Assembly (NCBI GenBank): GCA_021806165.1
Contig: JAJZXY010000015.1
Location: 1-54,221, forward strand
Direction of reading: 5' to 3'
DNA from: Thermoplasmata archaeon
GTDB taxonomy: Archaea > Thermoplasmatota > Thermoplasmata > Sysuiplasmatales > Sysuiplasmataceae
DNA: 54,221 nt
In this document: positions 11,853-18,352 of the stretch, one piece after another
Layout of the letters: every line of letters starts with the position of its first letter
How positions within the stretch are numbered: the first letter of the stretch is position 1
Notes under the pieces: model-generated
What the model was told of the DNA's origin: nothing
The model's input: only the letters and a program-made list of their open reading frames with translations
The model's database searches: none
Position numbers and translations under genes: made by a program

Positions 11853-12127
11853 AGGACAGGCTGTGGCGGCTACCTTGCATAGGGGGCAACTTGACTTTTA
11901 TTCGCCTTGCGAGGGGGAGGAGTAGGCAAAACTACCGTCGTGTTGTCGAGCCTTTCATGGTCTGCCGCCATCAGCCTGAGCAGGAGTAAACCCTCATCAA
12001 GCGCATATTCCATATCTCCCTCTTTGAGGTCGGTAAGGAACCTGAACGCCGTGTTGAGTACCGTCTGCTCCTTGCTCATTCCTGTCCCTGTAACACAAGC
12101 TGTGCGGTGAGTATTAAAAGGGTGTAA
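11853..12127. repeat. 275-bp exact direct repeat, copy 1
   Basis: Bases 11853-12127 are identical to 12727-13001 by direct reading, with an 874-bp offset. The unit holds one small gene on the minus strand with its promoter, and ends about 17 bp beyond its stop codon. Flanks differ immediately on both sides. I see no terminal inverted repeats and no target-site duplication, so it does not look like an insertion sequence. Confidence 0.95.
11870..12079 (-). CDS. Small hypothetical protein, duplicated (copy 1)
   Basis: A 69-residue protein starting MSKEQTVLNTAFRFLTDL. The first 45 residues look like two amphipathic helices (YALDEGLLLLRLMAADHERL). The tail is Pro- and Lys-rich (VLPTPPPRKANKS). 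The ATG at 12079 has a TATA box (12111-12121, minus strand) about 35 nt upstream and a short GGGA-type motif, and codons such as AGG and CTC resemble those of the neighbouring genes, so I take it as real. I do not recognise the family. An antisense frame reads GGGVGKTTVV, which mimics a P-loop but is otherwise serine-rich and not protein-like. Confidence 0.55.
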   Translation of the reverse strand: MSKEQTVLNTAFRFLTDLKEGDMEYALDEGLLLLRLMAADHERLDNTTVVLPTPPPRKANKSQVAPYAR

Positions 12128-12243
12128 TCTCAGTATCATTATTGCAAATACCTTCAAAGCCAGCGTCCTGCGCTCATACCTGCTGGCAAACGGCGGCCTG
12201 CAGTGCATTTAGATAGTTGCTTCAAGATGTCCGGTTGATTGAA

Positions 12244-12699
12244 ATGGCTAACGTCCTGCTAGACACAAGCATGGGAAAGATCAGAATAGAACTGTTTGAA
12301 AAGGATATGCCTGTGACCGCCGGCAACTTCAGGAAACTGGTGGAACAGGGATTTTACAATGGTGTCATATTCCACAGGGTCATACCTGGCTTCATGATCC
12401 AGGGCGGAGACCCGACTGGAACTGGCATGGGGGGGCCTGGCTACACGATAAAGGATGAATTCGGTGCAAGAAACAGGAATTCCAGAGGGACGATTTCGAT
12501 GGCCAACGCGGGGCCGAATACCGGTGGAAGCCAGTTCTTCATCAACGTGGCAGACAACAATTTCCTCGACAGGAAGCATCCTGTTTTCGGCAGTATTGTT
12601 GAGGGCATGGATGTGGCCGATGCAATAAGCAAGACTAGGAGGGACGGCAACGACAGGCCGCTCACGAAGGTAGTGATAAACAGCGCATCGGTTGTCTGA
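12244..12699 (+). CDS. Cyclophilin-type peptidyl-prolyl isomerase
   Basis: A 151-residue single-domain cyclophilin. The active-site residues are visible: FHRVIPGFMIQGGD (43-56, with Arg45 and Gln53), GTISMAN, and SQFFI (96-100), ending with LDRKHPVFGSIVEG. No signal peptide is present, so it acts in the cytoplasm on protein folding. Cyclophilins are patchy in Archaea, so acquisition by transfer is plausible. The ATG at 12244 lies about 35 nt after a TATA-like catttagata; a TTG at 12217 would add nine residues. The gene sits exactly between the two 275-bp repeat copies. Confidence 0.93.
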   Translation: MANVLLDTSMGKIRIELFEKDMPVTAGNFRKLVEQGFYNGVIFHRVIPGFMIQGGDPTGTGMGGPGYTIKDEFGARNRNSRGTISMANAGPNTGGSQFFINVADNNFLDRKHPVFGSIVEGMDVADAISKTRRDGNDRPLTKVVINSASVV

Positions 12700-12726: not shown

Positions 12727-13001
12727 AGGACAGGCTGTGGCGGCTACCTTGCATAGGGGGCAACTTGACTTTTATTCGCCTTGCGAGGGGGAGGAGTAGG
12801 CAAAACTACCGTCGTGTTGTCGAGCCTTTCATGGTCTGCCGCCATCAGCCTGAGCAGGAGTAAACCCTCATCAAGCGCATATTCCATATCTCCCTCTTTG
12901 AGGTCGGTAAGGAACCTGAACGCCGTGTTGAGTACCGTCTGCTCCTTGCTCATTCCTGTCCCTGTAACACAAGCTGTGCGGTGAGTATTAAAAGGGTGTA
13001 A
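12727..13001. repeat. 275-bp exact direct repeat, copy 2
   Basis: Second copy of the unit at 11853-12127, in the same orientation with no mismatch. It lies between the cyclophilin gene and the end of the GrpB-family gene. The two copies bracket cyclophilin in about 1150 bp, so homologous recombination between them could delete or amplify it. Confidence 0.95.
12744..12953 (-). CDS. Small hypothetical protein, duplicated (copy 2)
   Basis: Identical in sequence to the 69-residue protein at 11870-12079, including its TATA box (12985-12995). Both copies should be expressed if the first is. Exact identity at silent sites implies a very recent duplication or gene conversion. It lies immediately downstream of GrpB on the same strand but has its own promoter. 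Confidence 0.5.
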   Translation of the reverse strand: MSKEQTVLNTAFRFLTDLKEGDMEYALDEGLLLLRLMAADHERLDNTTVVLPTPPPRKANKSQVAPYAR

Positions 13002-13009
13002 CACGGGTA

Positions 13010-13582
13010 TCAATTGCTGAAATACTGGCGCACATCCAGTCCCCTGGCAATGCTCCACTCCAGCGCATCCTTTTCTATGCTCCTGACAAGCCTCTCCTTC
13101 CCCTCAACATATGCCTCTGCATCCCATGGAAACTGCCTGGCGAGCCTCCTCTTCAGCGCAGCATATTCCCCTGCCCTCTCGCTGTTGGCGGACAGGTAGT
13201 CCCTGAATGCAATATACCTCAGGATATCCGCTGCACTGGAAATTCCATAGATGTGGAGGTTGAAGAGAGGGACGTAGCAGTCAGCCTCCCTGAAGAACGC
13301 CGCCTTTGTAAAGAATGCCCGGCCGCTCAGACCGTACTCGCCCATGTACTCATACCCTATGTATGCCATCTCCTCCGCCCTCCCTGCTGCCTCACCTGCT
13401 TCGGGCGAAACGCCCAGTATGTCGACGGTCGGCTTGGCAGGCATCCCCTCTATGCTCGTGCTCCCAATGTGGTGCAGCGCAGTTATGGCGCCCCCAAGCA
13501 CGGAGCGCAGCAGCATCGACTCACAGAGGAACATTTCCCTCCAGGCCGGTCTGTAGTCTGTTACCTCCACCCTTCGCCTCAA
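13010..13582 (-). CDS. GrpB/UPF0157 family nucleotidyltransferase-fold protein
   Basis: A protein of about 190 residues of the GrpB (UPF0157) family, which has a nucleotidyltransferase-like fold. The family signature HHIGSTSIEGMPAKPTVDI lies at residues 37-55 and contains the GS motif and downstream Asp of nucleotidyltransferases; NLHIY follows near 108. Substrate is unknown; some relatives are fused to dephospho-CoA kinase. The start is TTG 13582 or GTG 13570. It begins only about 20 nt after the stop of the large surface protein and is in the same direction, so it may be the third gene of the GTPase/receptor operon. Confidence 0.8.
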   Translation of the reverse strand: MRRRVEVTDYRPAWREMFLCESMLLRSVLGGAITALHHIGSTSIEGMPAKPTVDILGVSPEAGEAAGRAEEMAYIGYEYMGEYGLSGRAFFTKAAFFREADCYVPLFNLHIYGISSAADILRYIAFRDYLSANSERAGEYAALKRRLARQFPWDAEAYVEGKERLVRSIEKDALEWSIARGLDVRQYFSN

Positions 13583-13602: not shown

Positions 13603-16600
13603 TTACTGAGGCGCCGCCTCATCCTTCATCTCCTGGGTCTTCCCGGGGAACAGCCCCGCAATCTCTGCATCTATGCCCCGTATGCTCTCCCTGCGCCCGT
13701 CCCATGTGGAAAGGCTGTAACTCTCCTCTATCATTCCCAGCACCGTCCTTATATTCACGTACCACCCGCGGGGCGGCTCACCCGAATAGATTGCAAGAAT
13801 GAATGCATTCGAGCCCCTTTCCACGTAGATGCTGAAACGCCCCAGCTCTATCCTGCTCAGCACCTGCCTCTCACCCTCCATCTCGGGGAATGAAGTTGAC
13901 ACAAAGTCTTGTATGGCGGTGAACATGCCGACGAGGATATCCCTGTCAACCCCGCTGTAATCCTGCCTGTGCGTGTGTGAAAGCAGCCTTCCGTCGTTGT
14001 GTATCAGGAGCACCGATTCCAGCTGGAATGGTTTTGGGATGAGCCTCTGGAATATCAGCACCGCGGCAGCAGCCACCATGACGGCTAGGAGGGCGTAGAA
14101 CATGATTGCATAGATGCTTGGAAAGCCGTTGGACAGGTGCAGTGTGAGCTGCCTTGTCAGCGTGGCGCCCGAAGCGGTTGTGAATACCAGCGTCAGTGTC
14201 TCTGAGCTGACTCCAGACGAAAGCACGACGAGCATTTCAGTCCCCACCACCGTAACACCCTTGCCGACTGCGCTTATTTTCAGCGGATCGCCGTTGGGGT
14301 TGCTGATGTACGCTGACAGGTTGATGACAGAGGAGGTTGAGTTCAGAGTCAGCACCTGCGGAAGTGTTATGATCGGCGGGATATAGACAGCATAGACTTC
14401 CACCAGTACCCTGAAGTCGTAGAAACCGCTGCTTGAATTTGCCTCGAAGAAGAGTGGAAGCATGCCTGAAAAGTACTTTGCGGGGGCTATGGTAACCACA
14501 CCGTCCGGCGCCACGCTGGCCCCGAGCACGCTGCTTCCGGTTACTGTGAAATGCAGCCTGTCCGCTCCTGGTGATGTGATGTAGTAAGTGAGGTTCAGGG
14601 AACTGTACACAGTGTTTTCAGCCAGTGTGATGTAGGCGGGCAGCTGCACCCCTGGCACCCGGCCCGGAGGGGGAGTCGATGAGACGAGGACTGAAAGAGG
14701 GACTGTCACCGAATCCTGGTCGAGACTGCTGATGGGGCCACCCACGAACACAATGGTCGTGTTGAACCAGTACTGCCCTGCATAGGGGCCGGTGCCGTTC
14801 TGGCTGGACGGCATTGAGAAGAGAAGGGAAAAGTTGCCGATGCTGAATGTTATGTAGGATGTTCCAGTGATAACAGTGACCTGACTGAGAGGCACGTAGG
14901 TGTCAGTCACGTACCTGAGCAGCGGCAGTGCATAGTTTGCAGAGCCGCTGGTGCTGTACATCACCCTGATTTGAGGGAGGGGTGCCACCGACGGCGGCGA
15001 TATCACGGACTGTATGTTCAGGCTTATCAGCAGGAAGGCAAACTCGCCCGCCTGGTTTTCCGCCTTGATGAGGACGCTGCCTGAATCCGCAGTCCCCGCG
15101 GCCGGGGCCTCTATGTGGAGTATGTTGCCCCGGGACAGTGAGGAATATGCACCAGTCGATGCAACCGAGAAGGTGAGAGACTGCTGGGAAACGAAATACG
15201 TTTCAAGCGGGTATTCAAGCGTAAGGCTGTCACCACGGCTGATGGTCAGGCTGGAAGGAGGTGCGCCGGCAGTGTTAACCGCAGGAGGCGGCTGGCTGCT
15301 GACTGTAACGATCTGGACGACGCTGCTGCTTACGTTGTAGCTGTTTGTTGCCGTGATGACCACAGGGTATGTCCCTGATGCTGCTGCAACCGGGAAGAAG
15401 TATGCAAGCCGGTGGCCGAGGACGTAGACGTACGGGGAAGATGTTGTTATGGCAAGGGAGAGGGCTGGAAGTGGAGACCCGTCCAGGAAATAGGTGTAAT
15501 TGAGCATGTAGTAGGTGCTCGCGGGGACGGTCATGTACTGCGGGAGCGAGTTTATCCAGTGTGGTCTGGGAAGCACACTTATGTTGAATGTCTCGGTCAC
15601 GGTATACCCCTGCGTATTGGTGACCGACAGTGTCATGCTTGCATTACCGTAGGCGCCACTGTACGGCACAAGCACCATCTGCAAATCGCCATCCACCCCC
15701 TGCCCGTAGCTGTAGACGATGCCGCTTCCGCCGCTTATGTACCACGCCATCTGGCTTCCCGTGGGATCATTCGGGTCTGAAAAATACGAGGTAAGGTTGA
15801 GTGAGAGTGATGTCCCGGACGGCCATGACTGCGCCTGTATAGGTGCAAGCTCCTGGGGGCTGAAGGCCGAAGGAGTGATGTTGAAAACCACGGTGTACGT
15901 GAGTCCGCCTGAAAAAGCCTCTACCCAGGCACCATCCATAGTGGACTTGGACGCAATGAGCATGGCCGAAGAGCCGTTTGGATACATGCTGCCGGCGTTT
16001 GTCTCCCACACAACACCCTGAAGTGCCACAGGGTTCCCGAAATAGTCGTAGCCGTATGCGGTGAAGAAGTATGTCTGTCCCGCCTGCACACCTGCAAGTG
16101 ACGGGGTGATCGTGAGGTTGTACAGGGAGGAAGGGGATATGGCAACCGAGGCACTTCCGCTTGCGCCTGTCGCGCTGTCGGTGGCGCTGACGTTTGTGCT
16201 TCCGTTGACTGTCGCGGTGAAGAGGCCAGCTGGTGTGATTGTGCCTAAACCGCCCTGCACCGCCCAGGTTGCATTCCACGAGCTGTTGATGTTGCCGTAG
16301 GCGTCATACCCGGTCGCACTGAATTGCTGCTTCTGACCCGCCTGTAGCGATACGACGGAAGGGTGCACTTTGACAAGTGAGACAGGACCTGCCGTTATGT
16401 TGACGGGCTGAGAATCCCCCGATGCTGAGCCGTTGTATACCTCAACGACGATGGTGGCTGAGAGGGTCACATTCTCAATGAAACTTGAATGGCCTGAACT
16501 GAAGATTGCCGAAATCGCGCTGTAGGCCGATGCGGCAAGCTGCGTACCGTTGGTATAGAGCAGGCGGACAGATGCGCTGCCGTTGAAGTCGTACATGACA

Positions 16601-17679
16601 GACCCGCCATCGGAATATGCGGTGGCCGAGACACTGAACGGGATACCTGCCTGTGATCTGCCCGACGCCGTCACGGAGAATGACTGCAGCGATGGTGGGA
16701 TCTGGATATAGGCGAAAGAGGTGCTGTTCACCGAATACCCCGAAAGCGTGGATGCACTTTCCGCAGTGATGTTTACTGTGTAGTTGCCGTATGGGAGTGT
16801 AAGCGTGTATTCAAATGCAGCCACGTATGTCATGGTCTGGGAGCCTCCGGGCGAGTACCTTGCCATTGGAGTGCTGTTCAGGGCGCTGTACCCACCCTGG
16901 CCAGTTGCTGAGATGAGTGCGGACGCAACATCAGTGCTTCCAAGTTCGTCGGTAACGTTTGCGAATATGGTGAATGGGACGCCCCCGTGCAGATTCGGCG
17001 GCTGCTGGACTGCCACTGAAGAGATCCTGGGGGAAAGGGACAGCGAGAAGGAGGAGGGGGCAGAGTTGTAGTCAAAACCAACGTACACGCTGCTGCCTGA
17101 ATTGCTGTCTGTCCGGGTCAGGTTGAGGAGCAGCATATCCCCTGACCCCAGCGTGCTCGTATTGAGCTTCAGTGAGACGGTTACCGGTGTATCGGGTGAA
17201 AGCCGGATCTGACCTGTGGATATGCTGGCCACCACCGCGGGCGTGGAGTTGAGGGAGGTGGCGTTCTGCAGCTGCACTGTGAAGGAGAAGTATGGCGAAG
17301 AGGTGTTGGATGGTGTCATGTAGAATGTTGCATTGAAAAATCCGCCAAGGAGGATGGCTGCGCCGGCAGCAGGCCATGCGATCCACCTGAAGGACTGCAT
17401 GACACCTGATGTGTTCATCTCTATCCCCTGATAGGAGCTGCTGATGAAATTTGGATTGACCGGGTTGTACGGTGCGCTTGTGTTTGCCCAGTCGAACCTC
17501 TTTCCGGGGTGCCCGAATCCCGCACCGTCGTCATGCAGGTAGAAGGTCGTGGCCGGCGTCTGGGACTGCTGGGCTGAAGCAAACTGTGCGGCGGGGAGCA
17601 GGGGGAAGGCTGGCAGCAGCAGCGAGGCTGCGGCTGCAAGTAGAAGCAGCGACCTGCCTATGCGCCTTGGGCTGTTCAT
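13603..17679 (-). CDS. Large surface receptor: Ig/cadherin-like ectodomain, one TM segment, cytosolic roadblock/longin-like tail
   Basis: A 1358-residue protein. An N-terminal signal peptide (RRIGRSLLLLAAAASLLLP, cut near SAQQ) precedes about 1150 residues of beta-rich, Ser/Thr/Asn-rich sequence with many N-glycosylation sites. The ectodomain contains two Big-type Ig repeats (each with QAGQ followed by YDxxGN) and later cadherin-like units. A single TM helix lies at about 1189-1214. The cytosolic tail of 144 residues begins VLLIHNDGRLLSHTHRQ, then GMFTAIQDFVSTSF and a beta strand FSIYVERGSNAFIL. That is the pattern of roadblock/longin-like domains in archaeal signalling proteins. GGGAGGT at 17688-17694 precedes the start by 8 nt. 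The gene follows a Rab-like GTPase by 75 nt, which suggests that the tail is its partner. Confidence 0.75.
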   Translation of the reverse strand: MNSPRRIGRSLLLLAAAASLLLPAFPLLPAAQFASAQQSQTPATTFYLHDDGAGFGHPGKRFDWANTSAPYNPVNPNFISSSYQGIEMNTSGVMQSFRWIAWPAAGAAILLGGFFNATFYMTPSNTSSPYFSFTVQLQNATSLNSTPAVVASISTGQIRLSPDTPVTVSLKLNTSTLGSGDMLLLNLTRTDSNSGSSVYVGFDYNSAPSSFSLSLSPRISSVAVQQPPNLHGGVPFTIFANVTDELGSTDVASALISATGQGGYSALNSTPMARYSPGGSQTMTYVAAFEYTLTLPYGNYTVNITAESASTLSGYSVNSTSFAYIQIPPSLQSFSVTASGRSQAGIPFSVSATAYSDGGSVMYDFNGSASVRLLYTNGTQLAASAYSAISAIFSSGHSSFIENVTLSATIVVEVYNGSASGDSQPVNITAGPVSLVKVHPSVVSLQAGQKQQFSATGYDAYGNINSSWNATWAVQGGLGTITPAGLFTATVNGSTNVSATDSATGASGSASVAISPSSLYNLTITPSLAGVQAGQTYFFTAYGYDYFGNPVALQGVVWETNAGSMYPNGSSAMLIASKSTMDGAWVEAFSGGLTYTVVFNITPSAFSPQELAPIQAQSWPSGTSLSLNLTSYFSDPNDPTGSQMAWYISGGSGIVYSYGQGVDGDLQMVLVPYSGAYGNASMTLSVTNTQGYTVTETFNISVLPRPHWINSLPQYMTVPASTYYMLNYTYFLDGSPLPALSLAITTSSPYVYVLGHRLAYFFPVAAASGTYPVVITATNSYNVSSSVVQIVTVSSQPPPAVNTAGAPPSSLTISRGDSLTLEYPLETYFVSQQSLTFSVASTGAYSSLSRGNILHIEAPAAGTADSGSVLIKAENQAGEFAFLLISLNIQSVISPPSVAPLPQIRVMYSTSGSANYALPLLRYVTDTYVPLSQVTVITGTSYITFSIGNFSLLFSMPSSQNGTGPYAGQYWFNTTIVFVGGPISSLDQDSVTVPLSVLVSSTPPPGRVPGVQLPAYITLAENTVYSSLNLTYYITSPGADRLHFTVTGSSVLGASVAPDGVVTIAPAKYFSGMLPLFFEANSSSGFYDFRVLVEVYAVYIPPIITLPQVLTLNSTSSVINLSAYISNPNGDPLKISAVGKGVTVVGTEMLVVLSSGVSSETLTLVFTTASGATLTRQLTLHLSNGFPSIYAIMFYALLAVMVAAAAVLIFQRLIPKPFQLESVLLIHNDGRLLSHTHRQDYSGVDRDILVGMFTAIQDFVSTSFPEMEGERQVLSRIELGRFSIYVERGSNAFILAIYSGEPPRGWYVNIRTVLGMIEESYSLSTWDGRRESIRGIDAEIAGLFPGKTQEMKDEAAPQ

Positions 17680-17687
17680 ATTTCGAG

Positions 17688-17694
17688 ACCTCCC
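17688..17694 (-). promoter_or_regulatory. Strong Shine-Dalgarno site of the surface-receptor gene
   Basis: GGGAGGT on the minus strand, 8 nt before the ATG at 17679. Many genes in this window appear leaderless, so this site suggests translation from inside a longer mRNA that starts at the GTPase gene. Confidence 0.6.
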
Positions 17695-17754
17695 GCGTGG
17701 CCCTGCACCGCCGGGCGGCGCCGGGAAGAAGAAAAGAACGGCATCTCTATTTCT

Positions 17755-18297
17755 TTATTTTCTAGCGGTAAGCAGGGAGGCGAGTCGCATGAATGCTGTC
17801 TCGACATTTTCACCCGTCTTCGCGCTGGCAACCATCGAGGGTGAGCCGTAGGATGTGGCAATCTTCTCTATGTCCTGCCTCGAAACGACCATCTGGTCGG
17901 TGAGGTCGTTCTTGTTGCCCAGGAACACCATTGGAATATGTCCCGTGATGCTCTCCAGGGACTTTATCCAGTATTTCAGTTCCTCCAGAGACTCCCTGTT
18001 GGTTACATCGCAGACGCAGATTGCCCCCTCCGCGCCGTAGAAATACGACTCTCTCAGCAGTTCCCTGAAGCCCTTCTGTCCCATTATATCCCAAATGAGC
18101 ATTGAAAGTGCTATCTCCCTGCCGCCGTCCTTCTTTACCGTCACCTCCTTCTTGGTTACCTTCGTGCCAATGGTGGAGGTGTACTTGTCGTCGAACGTGT
18201 CAAGCACGAAGCGCCTGATCAGGCTCGTCTTACCGACGTTGTTGTCTCCTACCAAGCATATCTTCGTCCTTATTTCTTCACTCAGCTGAATCACCAC
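17755..18297 (-). CDS. Rab/Ras-like small GTPase
   Basis: A 180-residue Ras-superfamily GTPase with all G motifs: P-loop GDNNVGKT (17-24), switch I YTSTIGTK with Thr42, switch II WDIMGQKGF (69-77, with the catalytic-type Gln74), NKND (128-131) and SAK (158-160). The TIG and WDxxGQ wording is closest to eukaryotic Rab and archaeal/bacterial Rab-like or MglA-like proteins. There is no C-terminal Cys for prenylation, so membrane contact would need a partner. A TATA box lies at 18340-18352. The next gene in the same direction, 75 nt on, is a transmembrane receptor whose cytosolic tail looks like a roadblock/longin GTPase platform. Confidence 0.92.
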   Translation of the reverse strand: MVIQLSEEIRTKICLVGDNNVGKTSLIRRFVLDTFDDKYTSTIGTKVTKKEVTVKKDGGREIALSMLIWDIMGQKGFRELLRESYFYGAEGAICVCDVTNRESLEELKYWIKSLESITGHIPMVFLGNKNDLTDQMVVSRQDIEKIATSYGSPSMVASAKTGENVETAFMRLASLLTARK

Positions 18298-18339: not shown

Positions 18340-18352
18340 TTAAATATATTTC
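18340..18352 (-). promoter_or_regulatory. TATA box of the GTPase-receptor operon
   Basis: The minus-strand sequence gaaatatatttaa is a strong AT-rich box A about 48 nt before the GTPase ATG. This predicts a leader of about 20 nt and separates the unit from the upstream enoyl-CoA hydratase gene. Confidence 0.5.

Follow-up and report, generated by a model that had tools for sequence, protein, structure and literature searches.

A Rab-like GTPase gene paired with a surface receptor gene whose cytosolic tail is predicted to be of longin/roadblock class in Thermoplasmatota

The window analysed here is a stretch of 54,221 nucleotides from an archaeon that counts Candidatus Sysuiplasma superficiale (L066; L, G and f codes designate the loci, genomes and family-level groups of our search, f1 being the family of the window) among its relatives of the same family, which places the source among the Thermoplasmatota, close to Sysuiplasma; its assembly measures 1.88 Mb and is 96% complete. 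Two neighbouring genes of the minus strand are of concern: one encodes a Rab/Ras-like small GTPase of 180 amino acids (aa) with a GTG start (17755..18297), the other, which begins 75 nucleotides downstream, a single-pass surface protein of 1358 aa with an ATG start (13603..17679). The reading frames, running from 18297 to 17755 and from 17679 to 13603, agree with the order, direction and spacing given in an initial annotation of the sequence. Besides this short gap, two further operon-type features can be read in the DNA letters. The first, already proposed, is a Shine-Dalgarno-like GGGAGGT (17688..17694, minus strand), recognised by eye 8 nucleotides before the ATG of the receptor gene. The second is a TATA-like element, aaatatattta (18341..18351, minus strand), recognised by eye alone, which lies ahead of the GTPase gene in the 91-nucleotide gap downstream of an enoyl-CoA hydratase gene. 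The sequence upstream of the GTPase start, also read by eye, contains no Shine-Dalgarno site.

The GTPase belongs to the Ras superfamily: it matches Pfam Ras with an E-value of 4.8e-39 and possesses the full G1–G5 set (GDNNVGKTS, TSTIGT, WDIMGQ, GNKND and SAK), including the catalytic Gln of WDIMGQ, so that its description as a complete Ras/Rab-type GTPase holds. Its nearest solved structures are Rab1 and Rab8 (E about 1e-30; 1.5e-30 for Rab1B), followed by a Rab of Thorarchaeota (2e-25), and we call it Rab-like on this sequence basis only. An assignment as MglA or Rup1 was rejected, since the nearest structures are Rabs and the Gln is present. The prenylation Cys of eukaryotic-type Rabs is missing from the C-terminus, which ends LLTARK, in line with the annotated lack of a lipid-anchor Cys. 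The organism's own genome contains a single Ras-family gene and a single receptor-type tail domain, and these are the two neighbours.

The receptor has the predicted topology of a surface protein crossing the membrane once (all coordinates on the minus strand). By hydrophobicity, the core of a putative signal peptide is found at aa 10–28 (17596..17652) and, in line with the annotated single pass, one transmembrane helix at aa 1192–1210 (14050..14106). Between them, the ectodomain (aa 36–1191; 14107..17574) consists of an N-terminal domain followed by immunoglobulin (Ig)/cadherin-like repeats; its Pfam match to Big_2 (E 1.5e-4) is slightly under the cut-off, and its orthologues match Big_9 and Cadherin_4. 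It contains 25% of serine plus threonine, no Cys, and 37 N-glycosylation sequons against about 14 predicted from composition. Past the membrane, the cytosolic tail of 144 aa (13606..14037; profile match 13651–14061) carries the domain discussed below.

That this tail resembles roadblock/longin domains had been claimed by the initial annotation, with its fold set as one of three points on which the proposal could be refuted, beside a modelled interface and the adjacency of both genes in related genomes. At the sequence level, the tail scores 14.1 bits against Pfam Robl_LC7 (PF03259; E 0.04), under the gathering cut-off of 23 bits, and was for this reason rejected as a true Robl_LC7/MglB member; a search of NCBIfam gave no match, and a profile search against PDB sequences returned noise only. 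Among 28 family members, four show weak matches to Robl_LC7 (best E 0.0019) and two to Intu_longin_1, which supports the fold independently of structure models. Two such models were made with AlphaFold2—one of the tail itself from an alignment of 95 family members, and a separate run on the L121 member—and both were compared by Foldseek with PDB structures. The first (predicted local distance difference test, pLDDT, 76.6; predicted template modelling score, pTM, 0.70) has the order b-b-a-b-b-b-a-a, with elements E15-23, E28-33, H42-59, E72-75, E78-84, E88-95 and H102-116; it contains a five-stranded antiparallel sheet in the order b1-b2-a-b3-b4-b5-a, and the L121 model agrees.

The best PDB matches of the first model are the adaptin sigma/mu longins, Ragulator subunits, zeta-COP, Sec22b, Ykt6, MglB, Mon1-Ccz1 and TRAPP; those of the L121 model are MglB, Mon1-Ccz1, Asgard roadblocks, Ragulator and TRAPP. 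The top matches of both members are thus all of roadblock/longin class (best E 1.6e-4 and 4e-5), and many of them are structures of GTPase platforms: MglB (1j3w/3t12), Mon1-Ccz1 (5ldd), Ragulator (7t3b/6b9x), TRAPP and Asgard roadblocks (9jue/7f8m). The TM-scores are moderate, about 0.4–0.69 depending on target length (0.67 for Sec22b), as expected of a distant branch. Since two separately modelled members both match this class, the assignment of the tail to the longin/roadblock fold class is well supported by the models, and the proposal survives on this point. The order of the modelled elements favours a longin: no helix of the domain precedes b1, the transmembrane helix lying there, and short helices follow a2. 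A roadblock is also compatible, the L121 model scoring equally or better on roadblocks.

The pair is conserved. Among loci with usable contigs, the window and 18 others (L062, L063, L065–L078, L086 and L088) show both genes in one orientation, the GTPase first; the GTPase frame is broken in L075, and in G001 the pair is present with the receptor cut by the contig end just past the GTPase. These loci cover at least four family-level lineages of Thermoplasmatota (groups f1, f3, f12 and f19), and the two genes are adjacent in all related genomes whose contigs permit checking, so that they are indeed neighbours in related genomes. Within f1 the flanks are partly common, including the enoyl-CoA hydratase gene upstream, and adjacency in this family alone therefore proves little. 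In f3 and f19, another, divergent gene lies upstream of the pair and usually a convergent one downstream; such opposed flanking genes suggest a self-contained unit of two genes. The distant L086 shows the pair with yet other flanks and a wider gap. Enoyl-CoA hydratase, being upstream of the pair only in the window's family, was rejected as a member of the unit. The parts of the pair are conserved to different degrees: the identity to the f3 lineage is 37–39% for the tail versus 14–27% for the ectodomain, and the mean identity within f1 reaches 87% for the GTPase versus 58% for the tail, with ectodomain segments at about 38–64%.

The tail domain is not restricted to this pair. A search of the genomes of 60 relatives found it in 43, as many as 22 copies being present in a single genome. 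A short gap separates a GTPase gene of L121 and L134 from the preceding gene, which encodes a small membrane protein with the domain. Two single-contig genomes rich in paralogues, G021 and G031, were used to test the distance between tail and GTPase genes, with rotation as the null: in G021, three of nine tail clusters have a GTPase no more than 2 kb away, where 0.26 were expected (P 0.0004), and in G031 four of 17 have one no more than 6 kb away, against an expectation of 1.1 (P 0.026), the latter association being weak when taken alone (P 0.03–0.10). The linkage in these two genomes is above chance, not universal.

The same two Thermoplasmatota genomes display large expansions of Rab-like GTPases, on the scale of the 37 reported in Lokiarchaeum: 27 in the 3.2 Mb of G021 (CP070739) and 37 in the 5.2 Mb of G031 (CP070751); Rab-type GTPases are thus abundant in some non-Asgard archaea. 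Many of these frames encode about 280–300 aa, longer than a GTPase domain, and some are arranged in tandem multi-gene runs. Giant proteins of Thermoplasmatota (L079, L080, L085, L087, L096, L103, L113, L123 and similar ones) contain two or three longin-class domains about 500–575 aa apart and have no GTPase gene nearby. The two copies of L084 follow each other immediately in tandem and could plausibly form an intramolecular dimer.

Bacteria also carry the domain: a Rhodospirillaceae isolate (L131) and metagenome-assembled genomes of Thiomargarita, Planctomycetota and others. There it precedes a transmembrane helix and, in several cases, an OmpA domain as well, and the gene of this type of protein adjoins a Rup-type GTPase gene in L108, L112, L128 and L131. 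In L132 and L138 the GTPase gene is about 1.5–3 kb from the gene of the domain, and histidine kinase genes are nearby in L138 and L112. At the Thiomargarita locus (L125) no GTPase gene lies within 8 kb of the longin-OmpA protein; directly upstream of the latter is a Ser/Thr kinase-AAA-GAF-histidine kinase protein (L125:2792-8035).

One residue of the domain deserves mention. In 21 adjacent pairs, an Arg in the b1–b2 loop (motif DGRL) is found together with a GTPase that has its catalytic Gln; six linked pairs whose GTPase has no such Gln display Ile or Leu at the Arg position, and two pairs combine Val with Gln. The conserved Arg may thus work together with the catalytic Gln, in a co-occurrence that is confounded by lineage.

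We propose, with a probability of roughly 0.6, that the cytosolic longin domain of the receptor docks and regulates the GTPase of the upstream gene, both forming one signalling unit. The receptor would sit in the membrane in type I orientation and expose a glycosylated, Ig/cadherin-like ectodomain, and its longin-fold tail, probably as a homodimer or paired with a soluble roadblock partner, would constitute a platform for docking and regulating the GTPase, either as a guanine nucleotide exchange factor (GEF), as a GTPase-activating protein (GAP) or as a scaffold. As the GTPase has no lipid anchor, its binding to the tail would also place it at the membrane. A ligand or a surface contact, sensed by the ectodomain, would then rearrange the tails and alter the nucleotide state of the GTPase. 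The pair would in this case be a compact one-receptor, one-switch signalling unit of uncultured archaea, and a concrete, expressible test case for signalling from receptor to GTPase with neither kinases nor G-protein-coupled receptors.

Several points weigh against this proposal. The GTPase is far more conserved than the tail, so that it probably has other partners too. Reciprocally, many paralogous tails of other Thermoplasmatota are without a nearby GTPase, so that the domain may serve further partners or act in trans. SNAREs and adaptins also use longin domains, and this without regulating GTPases. The organism's own genome encodes elsewhere two soluble roadblock proteins which could be the regulators of the GTPase, acting with the tail or in its stead. 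Finally, in L121, where the tail and GTPase genes are in the same frame, their read-through model as one chain gave a pTM of 0.43 with the GTPase half under a pLDDT of 50; the alignment had almost no depth over the GTPase half, the aligner having confused both families and placed tails onto the GTPase, and the model is silent on an interface either way.

The higher conservation of the GTPase is also what one would observe if control ran from the inside out, which is the main rival explanation: the GTP-bound GTPase would bind the tail as its effector, and thereby position, cluster or activate a surface adhesin or envelope protein. Such inside action of small GTPases on adhesion receptors has precedents. 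The ectodomain is itself adhesin-like, by its Ig/cadherin-type matches, its richness in serine and threonine and its many sequons, and the bacterial version of the domain is joined to OmpA, a peptidoglycan-binding domain. We hold this direction of control to be rather unlikely, yet worth keeping in view next to regulation of the GTPase by the receptor.

Another explanation, which we judge improbable, is that both proteins are co-expressed and never meet, the soluble roadblock proteins regulating the GTPase while the tail serves another cytosolic partner. Both roadblock proteins are Pfam-grade Robl_LC7 members, one of them encoded beside a V4R gene, and the many tail proteins devoid of a GTPase neighbour point in the same direction. 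On the other hand, the pair is kept across lineages with differing flanks, and further architectures, bacterial ones included, again link the domain with a GTPase. As for chance or trivial synteny combined with a misread fold, the partly conserved neighbourhood of the window's own family, enoyl-CoA hydratase included, would fit it, but adjacency in lineages with different flanks, the neighbourhood of the sole Ras-family gene and the sole tail of the genome, and the recovery of the fold from two different members make it very improbable.

The genes of the two soluble roadblock proteins have neighbourhoods of their own. The first adjoins a gene for a V4R domain, of the Bet3/TRAPPC3-like superfamily (L142:1420-2182 and upstream; G000:C6 near 92280), has an ArsA ATPase gene nearby in convergent orientation, and might form a roadblock-V4R pair in a non-Asgard genome. 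The second (L143:1408-2812; G000:C2 near 10372), next to a gene for a zinc-ribbon membrane protein, lies in convergent orientation to aspartate carbamoyltransferase-like genes.

The layout found in bacteria recalls the Group 1 Rup GTPases, reported to adjoin a protein made of a “conserved domain of unknown function”, a transmembrane segment and OmpA, for which no fold was given (Wuichet & Sogaard-Andersen 2014, PMC4316618); this group is marked by loss of the catalytic Gln in G3, and its gene neighbourhoods also count a coiled-coil protein and a kinase or cyclic-di-GMP output gene. As judged from the layout, the tail domain is apparently this domain. In both cases a small GTPase of the Ras superfamily is beside a membrane protein with a profile-homologous domain, and our bacterial relatives show the described order, with a histidine kinase near in two of them. 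The differences are nonetheless marked: the bacterial GTPases have K, S or E in place of the catalytic Gln, which the window and the other archaeal pairs keep; the domain is N-terminal to the transmembrane helix in bacteria and C-terminal in the archaeal receptor; and the archaeal unit has no OmpA, coiled-coil or kinase gene, so that the domain alone is common to both.

Other known systems compare in part. MglA–MglB of Myxococcus and Thermus also associates a small GTPase with a roadblock-class partner, and MglB tops the Foldseek list of one tail member; one MglA is bound per MglB dimer, which serves as GAP and GEF (PMC11016934). By contrast, MglB is a soluble Robl_LC7 protein, while the domain described here is longin-like in its order, scores under the Robl_LC7 cut-off and forms part of a receptor, and the GTPase of the window is Rab-like rather than MglA-like by its nearest structures. 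The conservons of Streptomyces (CvnA-D) join in one operon a membrane sensor, a roadblock protein and a small GTPase (PMC4316618, PMC13343842), but they comprise four proteins, including a histidine kinase-like sensor, whereas in the archaeal unit a single polypeptide would serve as both sensor and platform, and there is no kinase. Longin and roadblock folds likewise act as membrane GTPase platforms in Ragulator/Rag, TRAPP/Rab1, Mon1-Ccz1/Rab7 and the Asgard roadblock/longin proteins (PMC10933270), these being multi-subunit complexes, soluble or peripheral, unlike the receptor tail. Operons uniting GTPase genes with roadblock/longin genes are not the general rule in the Asgard strain MK-D1 (PMC10933270). 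Single Rab-like sequences were earlier seen in a Thermoplasmatales archaeon and in Aciduliprofundum (Surkont & Pereira-Leal 2016, PMC4915359), with no partner or operon described, the words roadblock, longin and transmembrane being absent from that paper.

Longin/roadblock domains, archaeal Rab-like GTPases (PMC4915359) and the bacterial linkage between a GTPase and an OmpA protein (PMC4316618) are thus already known. As far as the literature searched shows, what is new is the longin-class fold assigned to the common domain, the joining of this domain to a surface receptor, and the conservation of a two-gene unit in archaea outside the Asgard group. Tentatively, and with less confidence than for the docking model, we suggest that archaea and bacteria might have in common a family of membrane receptors and anchors whose cryptic longin-class domain would partner Rab-like and Rup GTPases in a dedicated manner. 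What distinguished the Rup clade was that its genes are uncoupled from MglB homologues (PMC4316618), a gap that the cryptic domain would fill. If so, this clade would receive a regulatory partner, and a fold put on a domain apparently of “unknown function” since 2014 would make its regulation testable. The family would then amount to a forerunner or an analogue, in one piece, of the eukaryotic membrane GTPase platforms, and the pairing of longin and GTPase in operon-like units outside Asgard archaea would bear on the origins of eukaryotes.

An anti-phage role was considered for the locus and rejected, PADLOC giving no meaningful match. Lastly, downstream of the receptor gene, a cyclophilin gene (12217–12699) is flanked by a direct repeat of 299 nucleotides (window 11853–12151 and 12727–13025), whose two copies, the only ones in the genome, are 96% identical, with 231 nucleotides at 100%; it may correspond to a duplication or to a small mobile element.
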